Shown here piece after piece: positions 541 through 13,349 of a stretch of DNA of 14,586 bases (positions are counted from its first letter, which is position 1; each line of letters opens with the position of its first letter). The DNA lies in the NCBI GenBank assembly GCA_020200935.1, contig JAIVHR010000191.1, positions 1-14,586 on the forward strand, read 5' to 3'. The DNA comes from Sphingomonadales bacterium (lineage in GTDB: Bacteria > Pseudomonadota > Alphaproteobacteria > Sphingomonadales > Sphingomonadaceae). The notes below the pieces were generated by a model, which saw only the letters and a program-made list of their open reading frames with translations, did no database searches and was not told where the DNA came from. Made by a program: the position numbers and the translations under genes.

Positions 541-978
541 ATGCCAATCGGGGACATGATGCGCATTCTGAAGACATTCCTGCTCGTGGCGAGCCTGTCC
601 GCGGCCTCGATCGCCGGCGTTACAGCCGCGGTAGCGCAGGCCGAATTGCCGCCGGCACCCGAAGCCGAACTGGCGCCCGCGCCCGGCGAGAACGGCGCGG
701 CCGCGGGCGAGGTGCCGCTCGCCGAGGCGGCCGAAATCGCCGGGTCATCGGAATTCTATTCCGAGCCGGTCGAAGCCGTCGGCCAGCCCGACGGGCGGAT
801 GTGGCTGCAGGATCAATATACCGAGGTTGGCCAACGCGCGGCGAATTTCCACGATTATCTGCTGATGCCGATCATCACGGTGATTTCGCTCTTGGTGCTC
901 GCATTGCTGCTGTGGATCGTCGTACGCTATAACGGTGACCGTCAAGATCACCGGCAACCAATGGTACTGGACCTATGA
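541..978 (+). pseudogene. coxB: coxB 5' part: signal peptide and first membrane helix of cytochrome c oxidase subunit II
   Basis: This is the first half of subunit II of the aa3-type oxidase. The start at 541 is chosen because AGGA at 530-533 lies 7 bases upstream; an upstream ATG at 520 lacks such a site. Residues 1-34 form a signal peptide (MRILKTFLLVASLS core, ending VAQA), followed by a Pro/Ala-rich linker (35-65). Then comes the family-typical MWLQDQYTEVGQRAANFHDYLL (87-108) and membrane helix 1 (about 109-128), ending in VVRYN at 127-131. After base 933 the frame is lost: 14 unrelated residues follow, then a stop at 978. In the family, about 45-50 residues including helix 2 should come next; they are absent. 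The sequence resumes from base 935 in another frame. This is a broken gene or a sequence artefact. Confidence 0.85.
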
Positions 979-1507
979 ATATCCCGATCACGGCGATCTC
1001 ACCGTGATCTCGAACATGCTCGAGGAAGAAGGCGATCAGGCCGAAGGCGCGGCCTTCCGCACCGATGCCGACGGGCCGCGCTTGCTCGCGGTCGACAACC
1101 GGCTGGTGATCCCGGCCGGCGTCAATGTGCGTTTCCTGGTCACCGCGTCTGACGTGCTGCACAGCTTCGCGGTTCCCGCCTTCTGGACCAAGATCGACGC
1201 GGTTCCGGGGCGGCTCAACGAAGGCTGGGTGCGCGTCGACCGGCCCGGCGTCTATTACGGCCAATGTTCCGAATTGTGCGGCGCGCGGCATGCCTATATG
1301 CCGATCGCGGTCGAGGTGCTGCCGCGCGACCGGTTCGCCGCCTGGGTCCGCTCGCAGGGCGGATCAATGCCCGGCGACGCGTCCGCCGATGCCGGCGTGG
1401 ATCCGGCCACGCCGATCACCGAAGACAGCGAAGCCCCGGTCAACACCGATACGGTTCCGGGCGCAACCGAAGGCGAGGTCGTCGACCAAGCCGCCGTCGG
1501 AAACTGA
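935..1507 (+). CDS. coxB: coxB 3' part: CuA domain of cytochrome c oxidase subunit II
   Basis: This frame holds the complete periplasmic CuA domain that takes electrons from cytochrome c. Visible are the aromatic patch GNQWYWTYEYPD (residues 7-18), the first CuA ligand in DVLHSF (H76) and the second ligand cluster CSELCGARHAYM (111-122), giving C111, E113, C115, H119 and M122. All CuA ligands are present. A 45-residue acidic, low-complexity tail follows (about 147-190). The GTG at 935 has no ribosome binding site, signal peptide or membrane anchor, so this is almost certainly the displaced second half of coxB and not an independent gene. Relative to the 5' part it is in another frame and lacks the sequence for membrane helix 2. 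It ends 14 bases before coxA. Confidence 0.85.
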   Translation: MTVKITGNQWYWTYEYPDHGDLTVISNMLEEEGDQAEGAAFRTDADGPRLLAVDNRLVIPAGVNVRFLVTASDVLHSFAVPAFWTKIDAVPGRLNEGWVRVDRPGVYYGQCSELCGARHAYMPIAVEVLPRDRFAAWVRSQGGSMPGDASADAGVDPATPITEDSEAPVNTDTVPGATEGEVVDQAAVGN

Positions 1508-1521
1508 GGCATTAGAGACAC

Positions 1522-12190: not shown

Positions 12191-12203
12191 TCGGGGAAAT
12201 TCG

Positions 12204-12695
12204 TTACAGCTTACGGTAGAGCCAGACCGAGGGCAGCGCCTTGGAAAAGCCCGCTTTGTCATAGGCACGCCGTGCGGGGGCATGACTCGGGTCGCCGCCC
12301 GTGCCGACAGTCGCCGCTTCCATGCCGAGTTCGCGTAGCCGATCGAGCGCGAATTCGTACATCGCGGTGCCGATGCCCTGCCCGGCATGGTCGGGATGGA
12401 CGGCGTTGAGGCCGATCTCGCCGAGCTTCTGCGTGTCGTCGCAGGACAGCGCGACGAAGCCGACGATCTCTTCGCCCAGGCAGACGACATGGAGTTCGAA
12501 GTCGGAAGCCTGATCGGCGATTTCGTTGAGATGGTCGCCTTGCTCCGCCTCGGCTCGGGGAAAGGCGTGCGGAGCGATTTCCTCGCCGACGATGGCGCGG
12601 AAGCTCGCAAAGACGGGTTGGTAGGCCGCCGTGCGGATTTCGTGCAGCCGTTCGAGATCGCCGGCCCGGGCGGCTCGAAAATGCGGTGCCGTCAT
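12204..12695 (-). CDS. GNAT family N-acetyltransferase
   Basis: From ATG 12695 this is a 163-residue single-domain GNAT protein, using acetyl-CoA to acetylate an unknown amine. The acetyl-CoA pyrophosphate loop is clear: IGLNAVHPDHAGQGIGTAMY (94-113), with the Q-x-x-G-x-G/A core at Q106-GIGTA. It is preceded by the EEIVGFVALS strand and followed by RRAYDKAGF near 142-150, the usual C-terminal motif. The protein is complete. Its ATG overlaps the TGA that should end the upstream SDR gene (12692-12695). In the sequence as given, however, the SDR frame runs straight into it, making one 381-codon frame (12204-13349). The natural arrangement was probably two coupled genes. Confidence 0.88.
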   Translation of the reverse strand: MTAPHFRAARAGDLERLHEIRTAAYQPVFASFRAIVGEEIAPHAFPRAEAEQGDHLNEIADQASDFELHVVCLGEEIVGFVALSCDDTQKLGEIGLNAVHPDHAGQGIGTAMYEFALDRLRELGMEAATVGTGGDPSHAPARRAYDKAGFSKALPSVWLYRKL

Positions 12696-13349
12696 GCCTC
12701 CTCCGCCGCGCTCAGCCGGCCGCGCTGGCGGGTGAGGCCGAGTTGCTTGCGCAGCCTTCCCGGTGCGCCCGGTCACCGGCCCATCGAGCAGCGGCGTGTC
12801 GATGAAGCCCGGCATCAGTGCGCGGCTGCGGATGCCATATTCGCGAAACTCGATATCGAGCCCCTCGGTCAGCGCCCGCACCGCGAATTTGGTGCCCGAA
12901 TAGACGACCAGCCCGGCCGAGCCGTAGATCCCCGCCGCCGAACTCGTATTGAGGATGCAGCTGTCGGGGGTATCGCGGAGATACGGGAAGGCGGCGCGGA
13001 TGCCGTTGATGACGCCGGTGAAATTGACCGCGATCGTCCGGTCGATATCGGGATCGCTCATATCCTCGAGCGGGCCGCCGATGCCGATCCCGGCATTGTT
13101 GAACAGCACATCGAGCCGGCCGCCGGTCCGTTCGGCGAAATCGGCGAGCACCTTGGGCCAGCCGCTGCGATCGGTGACGTCGAGCCGGTGGATCGAGCTC
13201 ATGCCCTCGGGGAGCAGCGCCGCGGTTTCGGCGAGCCCGGCTTCGTTGATATCGGCGAGGCCGACGAACCAGCCTTGCTCGGCGAAATGGCGCGCGACGG
13301 CGCGGCCGATGCCCGAAGCCCCGCCGGTGATGAAGATTGCCTTGGTCAT
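12692..13349 (-). pseudogene. Short-chain dehydrogenase/reductase, C-terminal part lost, fused to GNAT
   Basis: This is a classical NAD(P)-dependent SDR oxidoreductase with unknown substrate. Start ATG 13349 has an AGGGG site 7 bases upstream. The nucleotide loop is TGGASGIG (8-15). D33 in LADIN suggests NAD preference. NNAG lies at 84-87 and the catalytic residues N109, S136 or S137, Y150 and K154 (YSGTK) are all present. MPGFIDTPLLDGP (179-191) is normal, but then the frame changes. The expected end, PGRLRKQLGLTRQRGRLSAAEEA in the family style, is readable in another frame and closes with TGA at 12694-12692. About 40-45 residues are missing at the join (near 12760-12790). The catalytic core survives; the C-terminal substrate and oligomer region does not. 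Confidence 0.8.

Follow-up and report, generated by a model that had tools for sequence, protein, structure and literature searches.

Internal losses in four genes of a Parasphingopyxis-related draft genome are most likely false joins of a scaffolded short-read assembly

The window analysed here, a stretch of 14,586 nucleotides, comprises bases 1-14586 of the 15702-bp contig C244, which belongs to the draft genome of a Parasphingopyxis relative (343 contigs, 2,107,072 bases, completeness 66%). Four of its genes, coxB, surf1, ccmB and an SDR gene, change reading frame internally, and the question is whether the bacterium has mutated at these places or whether the draft has been put together wrongly there. 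We argue, with a probability of roughly 0.85, that each of the four lesions is a false join, made when a scaffolded short-read draft of thin coverage was assembled, and that the bacterium carries no mutation there. The features concerned are collected in Table 1.

Table 1. Positions of the broken genes, the joins and the adjoining features in the window
Feature	Position	Strand	Basis or remark
coxB 5' part (signal peptide, first membrane helix)	520..932	+	our reading, without Pfam match; alignment of relatives ends at 928-935
Join 1, 149 bp missing from coxB	932..935	+	alignment to relatives
coxB 3' part, COX2 periplasmic domain	935..1507	+	PF00116, E 3e-46
surf1 up to the join	6577..7098	+	PF02104, profile 2-205 of 205
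Join 2, ~40 bp missing	7095..7101	+	surf1 lacks its tail and the end of its last membrane helix
thrC, intact, 468 aa	7135..8541	+	Pfam threonine synthase domains; read in the surf1 frame past the join
ccmB C-terminal part, different frame	10180..10299	-	alignment to relatives
Join 3, 40 bp missing from ccmB	10300..10301	-	alignment to relatives
ccmB N-terminal part	10302..10784	-	PF03379, profile 16-158 of 215
SDR gene, final residues, different frame	12692..12763	-	alignment to relatives
Join 4, 155 bp missing from SDR gene	12763..12768	-	alignment to relatives
SDR gene N-terminal part	12765..13349	-	PF00106, profile 1-187 of 195
ABC permease gene start	14277..14586	+	our reading, without Pfam match; truncated at the window end, N run inside the gene

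The initial annotation had described a frame-changing internal loss in each of the four genes, estimated at about 13 to 50 residues, and had proposed alignment to close relatives as a check. The alignments bore out the description and the measured lengths agreed with the estimate: compared with congeners 149 bp (coxB), about 40 bp (surf1), 40 bp (ccmB) and 155 bp (SDR gene) are missing. Deletion lengths and junction overlaps were tabulated, and the short forms of the four genes were found in no relative examined. At all four genes the flanks align well with the same-genus relatives (L032-L039) and then break abruptly. In coxB, where the reading passes from frame +0, held to about 932, to frame +1 from 935, the 149 bp are missing in comparison with every same-genus relative whose alignment spans the join (six of eight, the other two not being mappable). 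Two of these six carry 3 extra bases where the compared stretch ends on the far side, and the loss was again 149 bp at the protein level against G004 and G008. The loss in the SDR gene was the same against five relatives parsed (6 tried), and that in ccmB against three (7 tried); tblastn placed the ccmB break at the same position with 7 relatives, while an eighth match stops short of it. No shortened CcmB was present among the best 120 of 7729 homologues, all of which have 209-219 residues. The surf1 loss is the least exact of the four, as only G005 and G006 have thrC directly behind surf1, where they are 40-41 bp longer than the window, and the tail is variable; here the Pfam SURF1 domain is complete, the reading switches at about 7095-7101 and the frame then continues into thrC. 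Protein-database searches with CcmB and ThrC brought up no recognisable intact same-species copy: the closest CcmB among the matches listed has 93% identity and 215 aa, and the sole identical ThrC listed is the window's own, recorded for two contigs, the next one listed having 85% identity. In-frame losses peculiar to the draft and common to all relatives were not found in the window (one doubtful case, on L059, was seen against G004 only); a third of blind joins would be expected to stay in frame, and the four window joins are too few to say much on this point.

Besides the genes, the window holds several copies of an intergenic inverted-repeat element with the core CCCTGAGCTTGTCGAAGGGC (3195-3229, 5169-5254 and 8544-8631), and similar inverted repeats are also present on contigs L062 and L245 of the draft and, among congeners, on L038 and L265. 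At 4380-4600 and 9530-9720 the plain sequence shows GC-rich stretches between genes, of the CCCTCTCCCC type, and repeats resembling them were seen on further contigs of the draft (L085, L249). Elsewhere in the draft, contig L213 carries a 63-bp perfect inverted repeat (3816-3878 and 4277-4339), and L059 carries at its end a 65-bp perfect foldback (21-85 and 347-411), inverted with respect to G004 and G008, which we regard as another misassembly or chimera.

We then asked how far such lesions recur. Of 100 contigs fetched from the 343, 92 were readable (664 kb; four were taken up to 20 kb), and a path model based on codon usage called 578 kb of them coding, with 173 same-strand frame changes. 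Filtering left 37 of these as non-boundaries, and after removal of five at N runs and one ordinary boundary (window position 8517) there remained 31 hits without Ns, a count from a scan that overlooks short gene ends, the tails of the SDR gene and surf1 among them. When compared with relatives, the 31 resolved into 22 losses of 31-385 bp, one 8-bp gain, two ordinary boundaries and six hits that stayed unsettled, with one or both sides lacking a good match in relatives (L082, L220, L226, L236, L238 and L241; that on L238 may be a composition artefact). Sixteen of the hits were measured (15 losses and the gain), and 7 further losses were obtained by hand from match coordinates. The two candidates rejected as lesions were that on L205, where G002, G004 and G006 have the same two-gene overlap to within about 10 bp, and that on L212, where three relatives carry the upstream piece as an entire gene of similar length. 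The spread of the hits over the contigs matched chance (hits on 24 contigs against a Poisson expectation of 25.1, all 31 hits included), and on the same basis the lesion load of the window is ordinary for the draft, 2 scan hits against 0.68 expected (P = 0.15).

As a control, the same scan of nine same-genus genomes gave 1 hit in 305 kb, as against 31 in 578 kb of coding sequence in the draft; this hit, in G001 (L270, position 13722), amounts to a frame shift of roughly 1 bp in comparison with G005 and G006, where the frame stays open. Over all 21 genomes scanned other than the draft there were 7 hits in 498 kb of coding sequence, four in G016 and one each in G001 (the hit just named), G012 and G022. 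Of the four G016 hits three were measured, at 1-2 bp; these frame changes, at 3129, 12679 and 12840 of L046, lie in a single-contig genome, and our guess is that they resemble those of uncorrected long reads.

The lesions of the draft fall in unrelated genes, regardless of function. Using NCBIfam models, the genes broken by measured losses included those for phosphoglucosamine mutase (glmM), succinate dehydrogenase SdhA, Tgt and QueA, and those broken by losses taken from coordinates included DXP reductoisomerase (dxr), RseP and D-alanine ligase (ddl), while TrpC, also among the genes hit, belongs to the unsettled hits. SdhA, the general Tgt model and one ligase model passed the NCBIfam cut-offs, and the remaining pieces stayed below them, as expected of fragments. 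The 15 measured losses, each against G004 or G008, were of 149, 40, 253-289, 220, 385, 74, 182, 337, 74, 284-287, 199-223, 157, 77, 49 and 128 bp. Among the losses derived by hand, those on L207 (31 bp), L208 (130 and 71 bp) and L222 (dxr, 142 bp; rseP, 199 bp) were the same in both relatives; those on L055 (201-206 bp) and L245 (233-248 bp) each remove the end of a gene together with the beginning of the following one. The pattern of ordinary pseudogene decay, with single-base frameshifts and nonsense codons, was not seen among the 23 settled lesions, as they consist of the 22 losses and the one 8-bp gain. This gain, on L072 at 3719, is the sole small event among the 16 measured; by eye it is a tandem duplication, and the frame shift that it causes lies close to the end of a gene for a TonB-dependent receptor.

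Direct repeats at the edges of the losses were not found at any of the 14 mapped joins, the overlap being 0-2 bp in every case against the best-scoring relative; ranges of equal score reached 5-6 positions at a few joins, and low identity, where present, blurs the break. We also searched the draft, using the relatives' sequence, for ten of the lost segments. None of the ten was found in this 66% complete draft, so that completion of the genes from elsewhere in the genome was not observed, whereas flanks of equal length were found at their own place in 10 of 10 cases, the weakest being 20 residues of SdhA (E 0.025). Two of the ten segments were short (20 and 38 aa), and for three segments the sole matches had 32-38% identity and were taken as paralogues. 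Relatives keep the sequence that the joins lack, as at a scaffold gap or a local assembly error.

The initial annotation had named GC-rich, structured segments as a possible cause of the loss. The lost segments themselves, read in the relatives, are ordinary in this respect (mean z for GC -0.006 and for folding energy 0.09; 25 segments from 14 lesions), and such a cause is not supported. Near the joins GC was slightly above the draft mean (0.686 versus 0.654, 200-bp windows, 17 joins), and the stems over 17 joins averaged 4.35 versus 3.63 at random places (P = 0.02), a value that includes three window positions set by hand; at the other 14 joins the average was 4.0. Hairpins at the joins (stems of 7 bp at surf1, 6 at the SDR gene, 5 at ccmB and 5 at coxB) were considered and found not convincing, the excess being small and three positions hand-set.

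Furthermore, the readable sample contains 19 N runs of 6-140 Ns, as expected of a scaffolded draft, and one of them bounds the window, with 6 Ns at 14587-14592 where about 320 bp are truly missing. For nine runs the true gap was determined by hand from the match coordinates of relatives; true gap and N count were about 321 and 6, 161 and 38, 65 and 106, 293 and 133, 310 and 37, 482 and 140, 191 and 34, 135 and 41, and 297 and 104 bp, where the 135 bp (L252) is the G008 value and G004 gives about 90. Left out of this sizing were L227 (about 580-590 bp by both relatives, one flank apparently taken from the wrong strand), L249 at 11043 (matches weak throughout), L077 (unmatched, with overlapping flanks), L061, L220 at 6064, L226 and L253 (flanks on different strands), and the non-coding runs of L220 at 3498, L245 and L249 at 14321. 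The N count lay below the true gap at 8 of the 9 runs, by 94-342, and one run was 41 too long. We had expected the N count to err by a constant amount, which the nine runs did not show, the true gap minus Ns ranging from -41 to +342; N count and true gap correlated weakly (r = 0.32, n = 9). The losses without Ns were smaller than the gaps at N runs, not significantly so (medians 155 versus 293 bp, P = 0.09, the seven losses by coordinates left out), and their size range overlaps that of the N-run gaps (65-482 bp). Identical 20-bp ends on both sides were present at 2 of the 19 N runs; the available text of PMC7111523 describes such identical ends around N runs as a fault of IDBA-UD and CLC assemblies.

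Taken together, five observations argue for false joins: the lesion recurs through the draft, the relatives examined do not have it, the junctions are nearly blunt, the lost segments searched for are missing from the draft, and the loss sizes overlap those of the N gaps. In such an assembly, apparently made from short reads at low depth, coverage would have dropped out at many places, over stretches of tens to hundreds of bases, while read pairs kept linking both sides of each gap, and a presumed scaffolding or gap-closing step would have underestimated the size of the gap. A positive estimate would have been written as Ns, and a zero or negative one would have led to joining of the ends without Ns, making the gene appear internally shortened. 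N lengths in the draft reach down to 6 without a minimum placeholder, which suggests that estimates at or below zero were treated otherwise. The losses without Ns would then be the lower part of the same size distribution as the gaps at N runs. Of the two origins offered in the initial annotation, a systematic loss in assembly or sequencing is supported by its recurrence in the draft, by the essential-type genes affected, by its absence in the congeners examined and by the overlap with the N-gap sizes, although the GC-rich, structured cause attached to it is not supported, given the ordinary GC and folding of the lost segments; the other, a real deletion-prone process, is very unlikely.

An unlikely source of the joins is chimeric DNA molecules made before sequencing, by whole-genome amplification or PCR jumps, and followed by the assembler at low depth. 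Edge overlaps of 0-2 bp require a physical molecule if scaffolding made no join, and the foldback at the 5' end of contig L059 suits a chimera. However, loss sizes overlap those of the N-run gaps, and in our reading exact inverted repeats in 667 kb include just two long ones (L059 and L213) outside the repeated intergenic kind. Moreover, the mostly inverted junctions that mark amplification chimeras were not found; displacement amplification gave 406 of 475 junctions inverted and just 11 direct within 10 kb in the data given in the accessible part of PMC1855051, whereas direct losses below 400 bp dominate here. Chimeric molecules might account for some joins, but in a form that is wrong for displacement amplification.

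Real deletions in the organism, by blunt end joining or another deletion-prone process, have very little probability. End joining would be compatible with near-blunt junctions and with losses tens to hundreds of bp long, and almost all settled events are losses. Against this, frame jumps alone reveal at least 22 losses within the 578 kb called coding, among them losses in glmM, dxr, rseP, sdhA and ddl; point-lesion decay was not seen, and none of the relatives examined has the short forms. A cell should not survive losing these five genes, and a living cell that had lost all the genes broken here is not credible. It is very improbable that the population truly carries about 100 near-blunt deletions of 30-400 bp, whether as a relic population or a dying one undergoing end-joining meltdown, or with the intact segments on unassembled molecules. 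Equally remote is collapse of direct repeats or a false read-pair overlap in the assembler, a frequent source of clean deletions in short-read assemblies, as both need at least 10-20 bp common to the two edges and the edges share 0-2 bp at all 14 mapped joins.

False joins across coverage gaps are therefore our preferred reading, and what is described here is an artefact of a known kind, not a real biological feature. As biology the lesions are without significance; their value lies in a warning about drafts that are treated as the genome of a species. In such a draft, roughly every 20-26 kb of coding sequence can contain a broken gene that no N betrays (22 settled losses, at most 28 with the unsettled hits, in 578 kb), and readers will take the breaks for pseudogenes, lost genes or gene fusions. 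Counting the frame jumps that lack a start codon, with congeners as the check, exposes such drafts without the reads.

Short-read metagenome-assembled genomes with local assembly errors and with gaps at scaffold joins are known from PMC7111523, as far as its available text goes. Similar to the present draft, gaps at scaffold joins, Ns where flanks overlap and incomplete genes entering databases are reported there; on the other hand, the errors were recognised there by missing read support, unlike here, and joins without Ns that carry an internal loss are not among the faults which that portion of the article describes. According to the accessible sections of PMC11017572, low-coverage assembly creates spurious pseudogenes that vary with coverage and assembler. 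The breaking of genes by assembly is common to both cases, but that study counts internal stops and frameshifts, with short indels as an example cause, whereas the losses here comprise tens to hundreds of bases. The chimeras of multiple displacement amplification, in the text available of PMC1855051, likewise have intervening deletions at their junctions; those junctions are mostly inverted, while the joins in this draft are direct.
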